Virus record (IMG/VR): IMGVR_UViG_3300028536_000014
Location: 62,001-126,000 of that record
Length of the DNA: 64,000 bases
Reading direction: 5' to 3' (one strand)
DNA from: a virus
The notes under the pieces were generated by a model. The model had not been told where the DNA came from and did no database searches. It worked only from the letters and a program-made list of their open reading frames with translations. This document shows positions 5,147-56,230 of the stretch, piece by piece. A program made the translations under genes and the position numbers. Positions within the stretch are counted from its first letter, which is position 1. Every line of letters starts with the position of its first letter.

Positions 5147-6325
5147 TTAGCGTTTGTTATTCGCTAAGAGCACGATACCTTTCGGTTCGTTCGCATTGTG
5201 ATAGGCTATCGCCGCTTCATCTCGGATGTTTATAGCAGCATTAACATCTCGATCATGGGTTTGATGACAGTGAGGACAGGTCCAAGTTCTTTCTGACAAC
5301 TTTAACTTACGATCAAGACGTTGTTGACAACTGCTACAAATATGACTTGAAGGGTAATAAGCATCCATAACGACTACAGAACAATGTCCAGATTCCTGGG
5401 CTTTATAGATCACGAAGGTCTTAAAGGTAGACCACGCTGCGTCTGAGATGTGTTTCGCTAATCGATAGTTTTTGACCATATTACTAGGCACAAGCGCTTC
5501 GAGTCCGATGACTTGGTTTTCGTCGACGAGGATTCGAGAGAGTTTGTGTAGATGGTCTTGACGTGCGTTAGCGATATGTTGGTGTATGGTAGAGACTTTA
5601 AGACAGGCTTTCTTGCGGTTATGGCTACCTTTGACTTTACGAGCTAAGGATTGTTGAGCCCGTTTAAGCTTTAAAGCGTATTTTTTAGTATGATGAGGGT
5701 TATCGATCTTGGTACCGTCTGAGAAAGTAAATAGAGACGTTAGACCTGCATCGATACCCGTAATTTTAGTACCTTTAGTAATATTAAATTCGTATTCACA
5801 AATAAAACAAACATAATACTTACCACTAGCTCTTTTAATTATAGTTAAAGAAGAAGGAGCTGATGGAAGTTCACGGTGCCATTCAATTTTAATAGGGTTA
5901 TCACATTTCGCTATGGTGAATTGACCATTTCTTATTTGAAAACCATCTCTCATTAAAGAGAATGTTTGTCGACCTTCTTTCTTTTTAAACCTAGGATACC
6001 CAATCCTCCGTCGGAAGAAATTAGAATAGGCTGTACCAAGATGTAACATCTCTTGCTGAAGGGCTGTAGCGATAGCTTCTTTTAACCATTCACAAATTGG
6101 GTCTGCTTTATAAATAGGAAGTCGTTTAACAAAATCATACCCGGTGGAGATAGGACGAGAAAGGTTAATAACCCCTTGTTCTTTTAAAGCTAGCCAGTTT
6201 TCATATTCTAGTTTAGCTTCTGATAATCCTCGATTAAAGACATATCGACAACATCCGAAGTTCTTAGCCAAGAATTCTTTCTGACTATCTGTAGGATATA
6301 TCCGAAAACAATAACCTTTTTTCAT
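5147..6325 (-). CDS. tnpB: TnpB RNA-guided nuclease
   Basis: 392 aa from MKKGYCFRIYPT, the usual TnpB start; an 11-codon upstream extension is less likely. RuvC residues are all present: Asp in GIDAGLTSLF (~192), Glu in IGLEAL (~276) and Asp in HDRDVNAAINI (~360). A CSSC...CPHC zinc ribbon precedes the last. The arginine/lysine-rich region NFFRRRIGYPRFKKKEGRQTF is typical. Length is normal for the family and no frameshift is visible, so it looks active. TnpB cuts DNA next to a short TAM, using omega RNA as guide. Confidence 0.93.
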   Translation of the reverse strand: MKKGYCFRIYPTDSQKEFLAKNFGCCRYVFNRGLSEAKLEYENWLALKEQGVINLSRPISTGYDFVKRLPIYKADPICEWLKEAIATALQQEMLHLGTAYSNFFRRRIGYPRFKKKEGRQTFSLMRDGFQIRNGQFTIAKCDNPIKIEWHRELPSAPSSLTIIKRASGKYYVCFICEYEFNITKGTKITGIDAGLTSLFTFSDGTKIDNPHHTKKYALKLKRAQQSLARKVKGSHNRKKACLKVSTIHQHIANARQDHLHKLSRILVDENQVIGLEALVPSNMVKNYRLAKHISDAAWSTFKTFVIYKAQESGHCSVVVMDAYYPSSHICSSCQQRLDRKLKLSERTWTCPHCHQTHDRDVNAAINIRDEAAIAYHNANEPKGIVLLANNKR

Positions 6326-6451
6326 AATTGACGATATCCAATGTACTTCTACATACAATATAGATACCAGTGAGATATAATTTTAGTGGTGCACTACGAT
6401 ACTCCGGAGTCCCATCCATATCGGTGGGTCGTCAGACGCACACGCGCAACG

Positions 6452-6520
6452 TCATGCTGTGTTTCCGTGTCTGACTAATGGAACTTCAGGTGATGTAAAA
6501 ACACTCATTATTGTATTCAT
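6452..6520 (-). pseudogene. Possible N-terminal fragment of the gene split by the tnpB element
   Basis: ATG 6520 opens a 22-codon frame (MNTIMSVFTSPEVP...) that ends inside the left-end hairpin. It lies at the right distance downstream of the gene at 6533-7135 to be the next gene of that operon. It could be the 5' part of the ORF whose remainder lies at 4642-4989. There is no strong ribosome-binding site, so this is tentative. Confidence 0.3.
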
Positions 6521-6532
6521 TTGATTTTAGTC

Positions 6533-7135
6533 CTAAACATGTAGAATCGAATCCTCATTCTTTATAGACGTAATCGTATTAACACGTCTAAATTTTAGAC
6601 TGTAATGATTAAATCGACCATTAAGAATCATGTTGATTAAATCATAAATCCTATTATCATTACGATTAATAATATCGCCATTCTTATCAGTGATATCTTT
6701 TACATAAAAAGAATATCCATGAACTGTTGAATGACCATTATCAATACGAATACTACCACTCATCATCACGTGACAATTCAGTTTTAGATCTTCTTTGACA
6801 ATTTGGTTAAGTGTTCCAGATAGAGGTTCACCAACAGCTGTAAGCGTATTCTTATCGATAAGAATAGAACTGTAATTAGCATTCAAACTCAATCGCATAA
6901 ATTCAGATGAATTTTTCAATACGAATTTGAACTGTGGTAGATTCTCAGTTTGAAACCACAATATTTGATTATCGATTTTCATCGAGAACTGATAAAGTTG
7001 AATATCGGGATGAAGTCTATCAGTACGACTTACACTGCCGTCTTCAATAGCTTCATTTGTCAAAGTGATATCGAGAACATCTCGCATATCGTCAAACGGT
7101 AAAATGATCTTGTAGATTTTACTTTCGTCAGTCAT
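6533..7135 (-). CDS. Hypothetical phage protein
   Basis: 200 aa, not recognised. Mostly beta-strand-like with alternating hydrophobics (HPDIQLYQFSMKIDNQILWF). No signal peptide, membrane segment or metal motif. It follows the 7148-7654 gene by 12 bases, so they form one operon. Confidence 0.7.
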   Translation of the reverse strand: MTDESKIYKIILPFDDMRDVLDITLTNEAIEDGSVSRTDRLHPDIQLYQFSMKIDNQILWFQTENLPQFKFVLKNSSEFMRLSLNANYSSILIDKNTLTAVGEPLSGTLNQIVKEDLKLNCHVMMSGSIRIDNGHSTVHGYSFYVKDITDKNGDIINRNDNRIYDLINMILNGRFNHYSLKFRRVNTITSIKNEDSILHV

Positions 7136-12195: not shown

Positions 12196-12216
12196 ACATC
12201 ATCTTTTAATGTTAAG

Positions 12217-12290
12217 TGGTTGGAGGACTAGGACTCGAACCTAGATTAATGACGTCAAAGGACACCGTCCTACCATTAGACGATCCTCCA
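12217..12290 (-). tRNA. tRNA-Gln(UUG)
   Basis: TGGAGGA/TCCTCCA acceptor with encoded CCA, D arm GTCT-AATGGT-AGGAC, anticodon loop CTTTGAC (the same loop as T4 tRNA-Gln) and T arm CTAGG-TTCGAGT-CCTAG. One mismatch in the anticodon stem. Confidence 0.88.
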
Positions 12291-12565
12291 TCATAATCAC
12301 TTAATCATTAGAAAGAAAATAGGAACAGTTCCGGTTTCCAGGTAAAAACACAAACGTGTCATTTCATACTCCAATCAATAAACCCTTAGACGAGCACACG
12401 ATCACTACGCCTGGTATCACTGGTCCGAATGGGGTTGCAGGGGGGACCCATTCAGCTGAGGCGAAGTTTAACCAAATACCTTCATAATCCATAATTGTAA
12501 CAACGACATCATTAGAATTAGAAGGTTTTCATGAACGTGTGCTCCTCTAAAGATTCACATTAGAA
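12291..12565. other. Gene-free spacer
   Basis: No supported CDS. A short inverted repeat around GAATGGGG/CCCCCATTC-type sequence at 12430-12460 is visible; otherwise unremarkable. Confidence 0.5.
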
Positions 12566-12643
12566 GACCCCTTTCATCATTAACGTCACTGGCACAATGA
12601 GAACTCGTCTCGGGCCAGCCGTCCTTATTTGACGAAAGGGGTC
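12566..12643 (-). ncRNA. Covarying structured RNA motif, copy 2
   Basis: Closing stem GACCCCTTTC/GAAAGGGGTC replaces GATCCTTTCC/GGAAAGGATC of copy 1, while the internal 21-nt sequence (12598-12618) is identical. It lies at the 3' side of the large block that begins at the hammerhead ribozyme, so it may define or process that RNA's 3' end. Confidence 0.6.
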
Positions 12644-14150
12644 ATGCCACATGCAATATTGGTTTCAACTCCCTTTGAGCGCGATGCTCTCTGCAGAGTT
12701 CCACCATCGAAAGTGTACGAACACTCTCTCTTTCTGCTTTTTCAGCGTGCGGTTAATACACAAGTTAGGACTAGTTGGTTTTGAGTGCCGTAACACTCAC
12801 CTAGGTAGTCCTTGCTGGCTTATGCCAGTAGCCGCGTAACAAACAACACGGGTTTACAAATTATGACCCATATCGTTACGCGGCTATTCGGAGCCTAACG
12901 TCTTCATGTGAGGTATCTCCTCTTGTTGGCAGGTCAAAAGACTTCTCGTAAGAAGCCTGAACATGATGTCGGTGGCGAAAGGTAAGCGGTACCCTCGCAA
13001 CCTGTGACATCACACCTTTCTTACAACGTTTGCCCGAACGAGCTTATGGATTCTCCCCATCTGGCTCGGTGATCTTTCGATCTATTGCCGAAACAGTTCG
13101 GCATAACAACACGGCGGGCAGGTGCTCCTTAACGCCTTTCGGCATACCCTATCTCGAAAGATAGATCAGTCATTCAAGAACAAGAGCGGATCCTTGAATC
13201 AAGACGTAGTGATCGCCGATACCTCGGAGTATCGGTTTAGTTACCGTTAACGTCATACTACCATGCTAAGATCAGTGAAGGATGCTATTTCAAGGACGAC
13301 TCCACCGTAATTGGCATCACGGCTTCAAAGTCTCGCATCTATCCTACACATCAAAGATCCGTTAAAGTTTCAACAGTACTAAACTAAACCGCGTGAAAGA
13401 AAACACGGGGCGTAACACCGCACCGAAAGAGGGTGAGTATGTTCGTATAGCCCCAGATCATGATCCGCATTCTGTTACCCCAGTCACGTAGGTTAGAGAA
13501 TAACACGAATCACGATTGTTTTCTTTTGTTTAGCGTTCCTGCTAACGATTGCATTGGGTTAGTCCCACGTCCACATTCTGGATGCTCATTTCCAGACTCA
13601 GTTTTCGATGGAGCTTTGGTAACATTCTTTTCGTTGACCTTACCATTTTGATAAGGCTAGAAGTAATAGCGACTTCAAAGAACATGTCTATTGATCAGTG
13701 TATCAAGCACAGACCGTTACGTTGGTCTGTGTTGAATCCCGCTCCAGTTTCCCGGCTACGGCTTCTCCCGTCGATGTTCACTTTTACGAAAAGAATTCAT
13801 TGCTTGGTATAAAGCTTGATGGTAATGGCTTCGCCAGTGTTTATACCACCTGCGCATGGACGATCTCTCCTCCACGACTCACCATTGTTACGAGGCATGC
13901 ATTTGCCCAACACCATTCTGCATTTACCAACCAATACATATATCTGACTTTTTTGATCAGATTAAACGATAATACAAGCACTCCATTAAGCACTCGCGTA
14001 GTGCTCAACAGGCTGCTTCCTCAGACGTAAATAGATCACAAGGTCTACATATCTGAATAGACAACTTGACTAGTCGTGGCCACAACCAATCCGTAGGGTT
14101 TGAATAGTTTCGAATGCCTTCGCTACTACCCCTTCGCAAATCACCCTTAG
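12644..14150 (-). ncRNA. Long structured non-coding block (~1.5 kb) between hammerhead ribozyme and RNA motif
   Basis: No credible CDS. Many strong hairpins, including a 12-bp perfect stem at 12829-12840/12875-12886, CTGGC/GCCAG near 12820 and palindromic arms at 13090-13240. It starts exactly 3' of the hammerhead ribozyme cleavage site and ends at RNA motif copy 2. I infer a large minus-strand structured RNA whose 5' end is made by self-cleavage. A relation to GOLLD/ROOL cannot be confirmed by eye. Confidence 0.45.
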
Positions 14151-14211
14151 CTGTTATACTTATTTTAATGTTAAAATAAGTTTCGTCCCTTAAAGGACTC
14201 GTCAGTAACAG
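14151..14211 (-). ncRNA. Type I hammerhead ribozyme
   Basis: On the minus strand: stem I CTGTTA, core CTGACGA, stem II GTCC/GGAC with loop TTTAAG, core GAA plus A15.1, stem III CTTATTTTA/TAAAATAAG with a 4-nt loop, U16.1, A17, then stem I TAACAG. All invariant core bases and all three helices are present. Predicted cleavage is 3' of A17, between 14157 and 14156. It lies 15 nt after the CCA of tRNA-Thr, so cleavage would separate the tRNA from the large downstream RNA. Confidence 0.93.
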
Positions 14212-14225
14212 TTTTATTCTACAAA

Positions 14226-14301
14226 TGGTGCCCCTGTCTGGTACCGAGCCAGATTCCCTGGCTTACAAAGCCAGACCTCATCCATTAAAGGCTTCAGGGG
14301 C
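14226..14301 (-). tRNA. tRNA-Thr(UGU)
   Basis: GCCCCTG/CAGGGGC acceptor with A73 and encoded CCA, anticodon arm CTGGC-TTTGTAA-GCCAG, and T stem TCTGG/CCAGA with the unusual loop CTCGGTA instead of TTCRANT. Otherwise complete. Confidence 0.85.
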
Positions 14302-14308
14302 ATGTTTG

Positions 14309-14776
14309 TCAATTGACGATATTATTTCTCGTCTTGTATTCCTGAATAGCGGCGTTGATTTGATCGTCTGTCAGAAGAAGAACATCGACAATTGAAAAAT
14401 ACATGACGAGCGTTTCATCACCTGTGATTTCTCGTATTTCTTCAACGAAAATGCTATACTTGGCTGGTTCACCAGGAAACAAACCGACAATGATTTCGAG
14501 GCTCACGTTAGAATCATCACGAATCGTACCATCATCATTGGCTGGATACCAATCCAAGCGATACTCGGAGTCCTCATGACATCCAAGATCTTCTTTACCA
14601 TCGATGATCAGATCGAACTCATGTTCACCGAGTTCGACAGAACCAAGACCGTTCGGTTCAGAACTCAAAGCTTCGGTTATCTTGGCAACATATTGAGCGA
14701 AGCGAGCTTTCTCTCGAATGTTTTTCCGAGAATCTTTCTCTACTTCTTCTTCGTACTCTTCATCAAGTTCAGTCAT
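14309..14776 (-). CDS. Acidic hypothetical protein, paralogue family member
   Basis: 155 aa from ATG 14776 (MTELDEEYEEEVEKD), with GAGGAG 9 bases upstream. Strongly acidic N-terminus. The C-terminal DVLLLTDDQINAAIQEYK resembles the ends of the 10041 and 24816 proteins. It lies directly upstream of tRNA-Thr on the same transcript. Confidence 0.72.
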   Translation of the reverse strand: MTELDEEYEEEVEKDSRKNIREKARFAQYVAKITEALSSEPNGLGSVELGEHEFDLIIDGKEDLGCHEDSEYRLDWYPANDDGTIRDDSNVSLEIIVGLFPGEPAKYSIFVEEIREITGDETLVMYFSIVDVLLLTDDQINAAIQEYKTRNNIVN

Positions 14777-14810
14777 GTTCAACTCCTCTGTTGCGTGCTA
14801 TACCTCTGAG

Positions 14811-50492: not shown

Positions 50493-50832
50493 CCTTACCT
50501 TCAAGTAGAATCGTTACTTCTACTCCGTGTTGATACACAGCTCTAACTTTCATTAGAAGAGGAGAACATATCACGATCTCTTTCGAGACCCCTTCCATTT
50601 CAGCTCACTTGAGCCTACTCCGCGCTACCGGATGTTCGTTGAACGTTTTTCTGACGGATCAGAAACTTCGCTGCGGATTATCCAATCTTCTTATTTGTTA
50701 CCATACCTGAGTGATTAGTTCAGCCATTGTTATATCACTATAACAACTTGGTATAAGAAGCTCTAAAGGACTTTCCCGACAATTAGAAAGGTGCTATTCA
50801 GATATCACTATCTGAAAGGACTAAAACTGTTA
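50493..50832 (-). other. Group I intron inside the RNA polymerase beta-prime gene
   Basis: 340 nt, no ORF. The splice sites that restore the protein are GCTGAT^TAACAG and GGTAAGG^TTTGATGG: U at the 5' exon end, G at the intron end. Core signs: AATTGTCGGGAAAG (P3-J3/4), ATAATCCGCAGCGAAG (P4/P6-J6/7), GTTCAACGAACATCC (P7 5'), GGAGTAGGCTCAAGTGAGCTGAAA (P7.1/P3-P8-like, as in T4 td) and GTGATATGTTCTCC (P7 3'). P7 pairs GAACAT with ATGTTC in place of the usual GACTA/TAGTC, a compensated change. Confidence 0.92.
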
Positions 50833-52071
50833 ATCAGCGTTCATGCTCGTTGTGATCAAAATACTGACTCCAAATGTCAGATCCTTCGGATCGTTTTTAA
50901 CTCTTGGAATATAAACCTTCTGAATGGAACCTTGAAGCAAAGATGGAAATCGATTAAACAAGACTGGATAACGCCCATCTTTAGTATCAGAGATAATTTC
51001 TTTCAGATATTGATCAAGCAGTGGATGATAAATTTCAGTATGAGATAGAAGAAGTCCCACAGCGTCATTAATCAACATTCCACTTTTCTTGATAAGCTTG
51101 TTAATGAGCATCGGTCTGAAAATCGTTAAACCAACACCCCAAGGTATTTCAATTTCATCATATCGATGTGCGTCTGTTATCGAAGAGATAACAGCTCGTG
51201 CGGAATAATCGAATCGAGATCCACCGATATAATGTCGAAAGAGTCCAGACTTCTTAGCAACGATCGTCTTGAAATAACTGTCATAAAACTTACAGCTAAG
51301 AAGATACATCGCTCTAGCTGTACGATTTTCTTTAACAGAAACTGTTTGATTATGAAAATCTTTATCGATCGATACCAACATTTCGATAGCTTCAAGTGCT
51401 AACGGAACGGTACTGTCGATATAAGTGGCCAGAGATGTTTTCTCGATAACCAAGAGAGACTTATTCAGTAAAGGAATATAATCCGAGAACAAAATATCTT
51501 TCTTAACTGTTAAAAGATCAGCAAGATAATCTCGTCCTATTCCTTTGATTTTAAAATCTTTCAGACTCATCAAGAATTCGATGATCGATTGAAAATTCTG
51601 AACGAAGTAATTATATCCACGTTGAATACCAGCTTGTTCAATTTTATCTACGACATCAGGACGATTGATCTGAGGTGAATATGTTGTATCAGTTAACCAT
51701 CTCAAGATGCTAAATTTTGATTTGCTAAATCGATAATCCAACATAATCCAGATTATTGGTGACATCAATTTCTCAACACCAATAGGTTTTCGAAACCAAA
51801 CCAACGGTTCAATGGTGTTTTCAATCGCTGCACTGACGAGTGTGTCGCAGTGTTCACAAATCGTATTCTTACTGAATTCTCCTTTTGTCATTCCACATCG
51901 ACACGAAGGAAGAATTGTCACCATGTCACTTGAATAAGTTGTGGTGATTAATTGTTCAATACGTTCACGATCTTTCGTGGTAGTGTTAAGCAAGTCGTTT
52001 ATGATAATCGGAGGGTTCTTGAGCCCCTCGAACATCATATTGTTATCGATCAAACTCTGGATAATAGGCAC
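50833..52071 (-). CDS. RNA polymerase beta-prime N-terminal subunit, exon 1
   Basis: 413 codons from ATG 52071 (MPIIQSLIDNNMMFEGL). Zinc ribbon LPSCRCGMTKGEFSKNTICEHC (~58-79); GGSRFDYSARAVISS matches beta-prime GKRVDYSGRSVI; VLFNRFPSLLQGSIQ matches VLLNRAPTLHRLGIQ. The exon ends SMNAD and is followed by an intron-encoded stop. It is one piece of a multisubunit phage RNA polymerase (phiKZ type); other beta/beta-prime subunits are not in this window. Confidence 0.92.
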
Positions 52072-54367: not shown

Positions 54368-56230
54368 TTACCAACGAGCCTGGAAATAAGCTGATGCCGC
54401 AGCCGGTGTTGAACCATAACCACCCTGACGCATGTAGCTCTGACCAGTACCCAGCAATGCCTGCTGAGCATAAGTTGCCACACCACGTGCGTTGTAGAAG
54501 TCGTTGCCAGACATCGGTGTCCGGATATTGACCTGTAGGTTCTGAGTAGCGATAGCCGCGTCAAGCGCCGATAAGAAAGCACCAGTAAAAGTCACACGCT
54601 GATAGTAGCCCGTAAACTTCGCGGTATCGTTAGAAAGTTGCATAAGCATCTTCCGACGCGCTTCCAGTCGCAGATTCTCCGGATATTCCAAACGCAGGAA
54701 GGTATCAGACCATTCACGAATCATGGCCGGATTGCGTTGTCCGACGATATTCGCTACAGCAGCGTAGTCGAAATCACGCAGGTCACGCTTGTTGCCCTGG
54801 TTGTCTACCCAAGTACCAGCATGGATACGTTCCGATTGTGTTGCGAACAACGGAGTACCCATTTGGAAATGCTTGGCGTACTCACCATTGGTCAGTTCAT
54901 TGGCAGACTGGATGATGCGCTTGTAAGCACCATCGACGCCACGGGCCGCAGCCATGAAGACACTGAGATAATGGGTCTGCGGACCATACTCTGGAATATC
55001 CATCGAAATCATGAGATCGCTATTGAACAGAGCGGCAATATACATGCCGAGCTGTTCTGATTTGAAATCGTCAGACTTGGTGTCGATTGGCAAACCAAAC
55101 CCGCTTGTGTTGGTTGCCAGAATACCGCTAGGTTGCGGTACTGGCAAATTGCCTTCGTAGTTGTAGGCGCCAGGATCTGTGATGTCAAGCTCCTTCTTGG
55201 AGACAGCCATCGGACGAAACGCTTGGATCCAGTTTGACGATGGACGTAGTGCCAGTGCCGTCGAGAGTGCCAGCAGAACCGATGCTGTTGTTTGAGCAAC
55301 GTTGGCGGTAATGTCGGTGATCACTTGACGAGCGACAAATTTCCGAGTTTGAGCCATCTGCTGAGGCGCAAATGCCTGACCAAGTCCGCCGTTCGGATCT
55401 TGTGCAGGAAACCAGACCGCATCCACGAAACTGGAAAGAGTGGAGAAGTTCGCATTACGATCGCCAGTGTTCATCTGACGACTATCGCGATCTACGACCT
55501 TACGATCGGAGAAATTGATAAGCACGTCACTACGATAGACATTGCCAGCTGCATCTTCGAGTGTCTGACGAGCAAATGTCACATCGACCTGAGCCTGACC
55601 ACGCTTGTTCAGATTGGCGAGGTTGAGATCTTTGAAACCAGGTGTCCGAGAATTGAGTTCGGTAACACCAGCCATTGCAGCAGTCAGAGCCAGACGATGA
55701 ACCTGGGTCTTGTTAACTGGATTGAAGTTGCTATTGACGACTGTGCCGTCAACGAAGAGCACCTTGTTTGTGTTGTAAGCGGTCTCGATAATCCGCCGAG
55801 CTTTGCGAACCAGAATGTCGTTGATCGCATCGGACGGAACGCGATAGATCATTACGGTACGATCGTAGATCTGGTCCGAATACGGTTGGATTTCTTCACC
55901 GGTTTCGGCGAGAAGGATGATGTAAACAGCGACACCCAGTTCCGGCATGTTCTGCAATCGCGTGGCCACGAGAATGCAAGAGAAGTCGAGCGCTGGATCG
56001 GTTGCCCGACTCAATTCGACCACACCGATATCGACACTGCGGTCAGCGAGCTTGTAAATCTCGATCAGAGCCGTCTTGACACTATTGTAATACTCCGAAC
56101 CCATTCCACGCGGAATCGGGGCATTGAAGAGACCACCGTCATGCATGTTCCAACCGTTCTGACCTGCGGATGCGGCTGCTGCACGCGGATCACCATTGCT
56201 TGCACCACTACCTTCGTTAACAATACTCAC
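54368..56230 (-). CDS. chmA: Candidate phage-nucleus shell protein (chimallin, ChmA)
   Basis: 620 aa, GTG start with AAGGAG 6 bases upstream. Length fits ChmA (about 600-660 aa). Flexible N-terminal tail, two globular domains and a Gly/Ala-rich C-terminal tail (GQSYMRQGGYGSTPAAASAY) fit its self-assembly arms. Segments such as DGTVVNSNFNPVNK, DLMISMDIPEYGP and DFDYAAVANIVG...REWSDTF look like this family from memory. It lies near an RNA polymerase subunit gene, as gp54/gp55 do in phiKZ. Markedly GC-richer codons than all neighbours point to very high expression. The alternative is an abundant virion protein. Confidence 0.62.
   Translation of the reverse strand: MSIVNEGSGASNGDPRAAAASAGQNGWNMHDGGLFNAPIPRGMGSEYYNSVKTALIEIYKLADRSVDIGVVELSRATDPALDFSCILVATRLQNMPELGVAVYIILLAETGEEIQPYSDQIYDRTVMIYRVPSDAINDILVRKARRIIETAYNTNKVLFVDGTVVNSNFNPVNKTQVHRLALTAAMAGVTELNSRTPGFKDLNLANLNKRGQAQVDVTFARQTLEDAAGNVYRSDVLINFSDRKVVDRDSRQMNTGDRNANFSTLSSFVDAVWFPAQDPNGGLGQAFAPQQMAQTRKFVARQVITDITANVAQTTASVLLALSTALALRPSSNWIQAFRPMAVSKKELDITDPGAYNYEGNLPVPQPSGILATNTSGFGLPIDTKSDDFKSEQLGMYIAALFNSDLMISMDIPEYGPQTHYLSVFMAAARGVDGAYKRIIQSANELTNGEYAKHFQMGTPLFATQSERIHAGTWVDNQGNKRDLRDFDYAAVANIVGQRNPAMIREWSDTFLRLEYPENLRLEARRKMLMQLSNDTAKFTGYYQRVTFTGAFLSALDAAIATQNLQVNIRTPMSGNDFYNARGVATYAQQALLGTGQSYMRQGGYGSTPAAASAYFQARW

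Follow-up and report, generated by a model that had tools for sequence, protein, structure and literature searches.

The DNA analysed here, a 64,000-nt window within a virus contig of 244,725 bp, carries on its minus strand a long gene-free stretch between two tRNA genes, with a hammerhead ribozyme predicted at its head. What does this ribozyme separate, and what is the RNA behind the cut? The source of the window is, judged by its gene content, a nucleus-forming jumbo phage. The window encodes a chimallin (PF25677, E = 1.7e-24; 54368-56230), of which the best relative in GenBank is from Burkholderia phage FLC9 with 33% identity, and an Rpb1-domain RNA polymerase protein (50830-52071). No close relatives of the window were found in IMG/VR or GenBank with the ribozyme pattern, helicase peptide patterns or blastn. 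A group I intron (50541-50852, minus strand; 59.5 bits) adjoins the Rpb1-domain ORF, and an IS605 OrfB/TnpB-type protein with a Cas12f1-like TNB domain is encoded at 5147-6358 (minus strand) in this nucleus-forming phage.

All features of the locus are on the minus strand. A 157-aa ORF (14309..14782), without a match to Pfam or PHROG, is followed by a tRNA-Thr(UGU) called by ARAGORN (14226..14301), which has an encoded CCA and, as read from the sequence, an unusual T-loop, CUCGGUA. This tRNA is below the Rfam tRNA cut-off despite perfect acceptor, anticodon and T stems. The stop codon of the ORF is only 7 nt upstream of tRNA-Thr, suggesting that the ORF, tRNA-Thr and the RNA behind them are co-transcribed. 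The hammerhead (14151..14211) comes next, and between its predicted cut and the 5′ end of a tRNA-Gln(UUG) (12217..12290; ARAGORN and Rfam) lies a structured stretch free of ORFs of 60 aa or more on this strand (12291..14156), here taken as a non-coding RNA (ncRNA) of at most 1866 nt. The initial annotation had the ribozyme 15 nt behind the encoded CCA and directly before a 1.5-kb RNA. The close adjacency on both sides was found, but the gap to the CCA is 14 nt and the gene-free stretch is longer than claimed.

Read from 14211 to 14151, the ribozyme is CUGUUA CUGACGA GUCCU-UUAA-GGGAC GAA ACUUAUUUUAACAUUAAAAUAAGU A^UAACAG, where the caret marks the predicted cut between 14157 and 14156. Stem I is formed by CUGUUA (14211-14206) and UAACAG (14156-14151), stem II by GUCCU-UUAA-GGGAC (14198-14185), and stem III runs from A15.1 to U16.1 (14181-14158). 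The core elements are CUGACGA (14205-14199) and GAA (14184-14182, with 14184 as G12); H17 is an A at 14157, and the pairs G10.1-C11.1 and A15.1-U16.1 are both present. Stem I, the open-ended one of the three helices, has 6 bp, stem II 5 bp and stem III at least 10 bp. When the 1500 nt 3′ of the tRNA were folded without constraints, the canonical three-way junction formed; in an 86-nt fold, stems II and III were unchanged and the register of stem I was shifted. The base-by-base reading, which supplied these coordinates, and the folds agree exactly with the coordinates first given for the ribozyme, and with what had been claimed for the invariant bases (CUGACGA, GAA, A15.1-U16.1 and H17), the three helices and the type I topology.

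The statistical evidence was consistent with this reading. With a hammerhead descriptor, the site scored 23, far beyond chance: 2000 simulated 64-kb Markov windows gave 48 matches, the best of which scored 16. The RAGATH-1-hammerhead model (RF03152) gave a full-length match, UAUAAAA-like flank included, with 34.8 bits (E = 0.0017), below its gathering threshold of 56.3; when this model alone was run against the genome, the E-value was 4.7e-5. The flank in question, AAUAAAA (14212..14218), is aligned in RF03152 with the conserved UAUAAAA of RAGATH-1 hammerheads and could pair with loop II (UUUA) of the ribozyme in a putative loop-loop contact. A search with RF00163 (Hammerhead_1), proposed earlier as a check, did return the site (23.4 bits, E = 0.012), but under the 34-bit gathering threshold. 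All phage hammerheads that were searched with RF00163 fall short of this threshold, which is thus not discriminating here.

The scores below the Rfam cut-offs and the A at H17 might indicate a decayed or inactive relic. Cleavage with A at H17 is usually slower than with C. The core bases and all three helices are intact, however, and the RF00163 shortfall is shared by every phage hammerhead searched; a relic is therefore quite improbable. At the level of sequence, we consider the type I hammerhead confirmed.

Its position for cutting between tRNA-Thr and the long structured RNA is well supported, and other phages show this layout too. Cleavage had been expected to release the tRNA and also to give the large RNA a defined 5′-OH end, and the first of these would hold only in part. 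Since a type I hammerhead cut 3′ of stem III remains joined to the tRNA, the clean product would be the 5′-OH end of the large RNA and not a mature tRNA. The predicted tRNA-Thr product has a trailer of about 69 nt that includes the ribozyme; removal of this trailer is left to other enzymes, and tRNA 3′ processing must still take place. The predicted downstream product begins with a 5′-OH and UAACAGCUAAGG..., and obtains from the ribozyme only UAACAG.... RNA ends with a 5′-OH resist the 5′-monophosphate-dependent RNase E.

The ribozyme is only 14 nt past tRNA-Thr, so it might instead serve mainly in tRNA-Thr maturation, the downstream RNA being incidental. Other phage loci bear on this. We searched for a tRNA T-arm followed within 48 nt by a hammerhead core; apart from isolated or named phages, the loci compared (L numbers) are metagenomic contigs. 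The pattern occurred in 15 viral contigs, 11 of them with intact stems (two of the 11 sharing one sequence), so that about 10 phage contigs other than the present one have an intact arrangement. Bacterial and archaeal genomes totalling 257 Gb yielded 10 matches, nearly all without the stems. L014, L021, L024 and L019 did not fit the strict hammerhead descriptor. A 347-kb phage, L015, shows that hammerheads can serve tRNA processing: two type I hammerheads (6478-6529 and 6628-6678, plus strand) have their predicted cuts exactly at the 5′ ends of two tRNAs, and since the acceptor strand is also used by stem I, the ribozymes could take the place of RNase P for both tRNAs.

In other loci, it is the RNA downstream of the cut that stands out. 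It is a GOLLD RNA in L016 and a YrlA-like RNA in L013. In two small phage contigs, L010 (from 3337 onward, plus strand) and L022 (minus strand, after its hammerhead), the same structured small RNA of about 140 nt (GCCCCAG..CGGGGAAUAAC), without a match in Rfam, is behind a tRNA-Gly hammerhead. A gene-free stretch of the size of an RNA follows the hammerhead in L010/L022, L012/L020 and L016. The GOLLD RNAs of two isolated phages, Xanthomonas phage XacN1 (L047:1436-1526) and Stenotrophomonas phage CM1 (L048:1430-1516), also bear a hammerhead at their 5′ end, with 1 or 2 nt inserted before stem II. A TTGACA/TATAAT-like box is immediately upstream of both, and no upstream tRNA was called in the stretch of XacN1 examined. 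The RNA predicted to result from the cut starts with UGGUUU in XacN1 and CM1, as it does in L016. The occurrence of hammerheads at the head of GOLLD in these phages indicates that the ribozyme belongs with the RNA that follows it. Together with the retention of the ribozyme on the tRNA side, these cases make a primary role in tRNA-Thr maturation unlikely. No hammerhead core precedes the GOLLD RNAs of L051 and L052, which suggests that the ribozyme is facultative. From these comparisons, the hammerhead appears to be a facultative maker of 5′ ends for structured phage RNAs, through predicted cleavage.

A hammerhead-like core (CUGAUGAGUCGCC...GCGACGAAA) was also seen in a 595-nt gene-free gap of Salmonella phage SA002 (L060:1480-1640; 178868), a nucleus-forming phage, and a similar one in L019.

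The predicted downstream product is a densely structured RNA. Between 14200 and 12800, most of its 200-nt tiles folded better than shuffled sequences (five of the seven with z of about -2.5 to -4), and the excess over shuffles in this interval was larger on the ncRNA strand than on the opposite strand. The most informative feature of the locus, absent from the initial annotation, is a module of the L1 stalk of 23S rRNA. The bacterial large-subunit model RF02541 matched the ncRNA at 13359-13270 with 63.6 bits (E = 2e-16; cut-off 50), the counterpart in 23S being positions 2126-2215, and our own covariance model of the stalk gave 95.8 bits for this module. It comprises helices H76, H77 and H78 (13270..13359). 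In the unconstrained minimum-free-energy fold of the full 1866-nt RNA, all three were formed, with pair probabilities of 0.62-1.0. A 160-nt arm (GGUUUAGUU.../...AACUAAACC; 13232..13391), present in local and full-length folds, carries the module at its tip. In H76, GGUGG/CCACC is replaced by GAUGC/GCAUC, a change seen only in the window.

Is the ncRNA then a member of a known family? The idea of a complete, divergent 23S rRNA was rejected: the match is confined to the stalk, blastn and nhmmer found no other 23S sequence in the ncRNA, and the stalk is the sole 23S stretch in the genome. GOLLD, ROOL and other Rfam families were rejected for lack of a match. For GOLLD (RF02032; conserved 3′ domain, 416 positions), there was none in the window at the gathering threshold, nor in 12200-14320 up to E = 10; the ROOL model of Rfam was unmatched in the window, including 12200-14320. 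Unlike the uL1 mRNA operator, the module is not placed 5′ of rplK or rplA; its context is a tRNA and an ncRNA.

To judge whether the stalk is peculiar to this phage, we searched 2.9 million viral contigs with degenerate patterns. Isolated stalks were found in L025 (194 kb), L007 (46 kb), the pair L008/L009 (105 kb), the near-identical L036/L038, L037 (45 kb), L039 (222 kb) and L040 (412 kb); counting the window, at least eight phage lineages carry the module. Three contigs were left out of this count: L003 and L006, where the stalk is at a contig end, and L004, which has a true 23S gene. Matches in GenBank records labelled as phage were not counted either, being in annotated 23S genes or in short unannotated records resembling host contamination. 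The covariance model, trained on six phage and two bacterial stalks, recovered the three outside its training set, L037 (E = 1.2e-13), L039 (E = 9e-16) and L040 (E = 1.5e-12). Among five named nucleus-forming relatives, none had a significant L1 stalk.

The excluded contigs could be taken in favour of another reading, in which the stalk copy is a host 23S fragment captured without function or a chimera of the assembly. Several observations argue against this for the copies counted. The window copy is internal to its 244.7-kb contig. The module has identical boundaries in all eight lineages, without other 23S sequence, and it shows compensatory change: in an 11-sequence alignment, 94% of cells were paired, 11 of 16 pairs had changed on both sides, doubly changed cells numbered 34 compared with 11.0 in shuffles, and the covariation score was 0.641 compared with 0.216. 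The signal was lost when the partner was slid by 1-3 columns. The alignment thus indicates that the stalk module is under selection for its fold. The RNAs around the stalk are mostly dissimilar between phages. One scaffold is shared by L008/L009 and L040 (77% over 209 nt) and bears the stalk at different places, which favours repeated acquisition under selection. Taken together, these points make capture or chimerism very improbable.

The homologous scaffold RNA, with GGAACGUACAGCA repeats, is at L040:5430-6100, L008:4673-5090 and L009:337-828, upstream of tRNA-Arg(ACG) in the 412-kb phage and the two 105-kb phages. In L036 (2484-2566, plus strand), the stalk is a free-standing hairpin right after the stop codon of an ORF, followed by a T-rich run, and it could be a 3′-UTR uL1 site or a terminator.

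The hammerhead and the stalk thus both recur in unrelated phages. They were joined in one RNA only in the window phage among the loci compared: no RF03152 hammerhead was found in the other L1-stalk phages at E = 0.01, and the covariance model found no significant stalk in the hammerhead-only and GOLLD loci.

What would the stalk bind? H76-H78 is the binding site of ribosomal protein uL1, which also recognises an mRNA mimic of these helices (PMC10931766). No uL1 gene was found in any of the eight phage records checked, the window phage among them (seven of the eight carry the stalk); a phage-encoded uL1 partner was therefore rejected, and any uL1 bound would be that of the host. The head of the L1 stalk also uses a double T-loop module to stack on the tRNA elbow, and this module contacts the elbow in RNase P and T-boxes as well (PMC5309774). 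The stalk might accordingly bind tRNA elbows without uL1, as a chaperone, store or tether for phage tRNAs. The segments joining and flanking H76-H78 are the best conserved part of the module, and most stalks are between or beside tRNA genes and on their strand, the majority in or beside tRNA arrays; the exceptions are L007, with the stalk on the opposite strand, L039, where the nearest tRNA is 1.6 kb away, and the free-standing hairpin of L036. However, H76-H78 are kept together as a complete uL1 site, and in the ribosome, the RNA head meets the tRNA in the ribosome context. Contact with tRNA is also compatible with uL1 binding rather than exclusive of it. Binding of tRNA elbows without uL1 is in our opinion a rather doubtful alternative.

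Our main reading is that the hammerhead sets the 5′ end of a phage ncRNA that displays a mimic of the L1 stalk, and that this mimic binds host uL1, tRNA elbows or both. Given the sequence comparisons above, we regard it as fairly probable. The 157-aa ORF, tRNA-Thr and the ncRNA would be expressed as a polycistronic transcript. The type I hammerhead would cleave itself at 14157/14156, between tRNA-Thr and the 1.9-kb ncRNA, which would thereby gain a fixed 5′-OH end with no host enzyme needed; the 3′ end would probably be set by RNase P at the 5′ end of tRNA-Gln. The ncRNA would act as a scaffold and present the 23S L1 stalk, faithfully copied, at the tip of its long arm, most likely to host uL1 and/or tRNA elbows, and the phage might benefit from tethering or titrating translation components during infection. 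Self-cutting without a host RNase may matter if the phage nucleus excludes host RNases. A broader reading is that of a widespread device, in which large phage RNAs with an authentic L1 stalk capture host uL1 or uL1-tRNA, the present one being freed by its own hammerhead and nascent transcripts perhaps being shielded from host RNases by the nucleus-like compartment. We put this forward tentatively, at somewhat less than an even chance.

If the main reading is true, phages imitate a ribosomal domain with RNA. The recurrence of both features points to a little-known phage route for RNA processing and for engaging host ribosome parts. With a hammerhead setting 5′ ends, including those of GOLLD in two isolated phages, the boundaries and processing of such RNAs become directly testable; through the L1-stalk module, uL1 and the tRNA elbow become concrete candidates for tests of a binding partner.

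Two parts of this system are of known kinds, namely hammerheads and large tRNA-linked phage RNAs. The mimic of an rRNA domain may be a categorically new part. Within the open-access papers covered by our search, subscription journals lying outside it, none described GOLLD-type RNAs headed by a hammerhead or phage RNAs with an L1-stalk module. With type I hammerheads, including RAGATH-1 (RF03152), the ribozyme shares the core CUGANGA...GAA...UH, the three helices and the UAUAAAA-like 5′ flank. It differs from RAGATH-1-hammerhead in its score (34.8 bits, where 56.3 are required) and in heading a 1.9-kb phage RNA after a tRNA; it would work like a RAGATH-1-hammerhead, by predicted cleavage, and is not classed as one.

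GOLLD and ROOL are large phage ncRNAs near tRNAs that form RNA nanocages (PMC12286853). The window ncRNA resembles them in size class, phage origin, location in a tRNA array and dense structure, and it has a 5′ hammerhead like the GOLLD RNAs of L016, XacN1 and CM1. It matches neither model, however, and has an L1-stalk module that is absent from the GOLLD loci compared. GOLLD has been reported to pull down ribosomes (PMC12286853), and the L1-stalk reading agrees with this report. The uL1 operator in rplK-rplA mRNA (PMC10931766) is likewise a mimic of the 23S L1-binding site outside rRNA, whereas the phage module is the full H76-H78 head in an ncRNA or tRNA spacer and is not upstream of rplK/rplA. 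In sequence and structure, its H76-H78 are those of the 23S L1 stalk (RF02541 positions 2126-2215); in contrast to 23S rRNA, the module stands isolated in phages, without the remaining 97% of the molecule.
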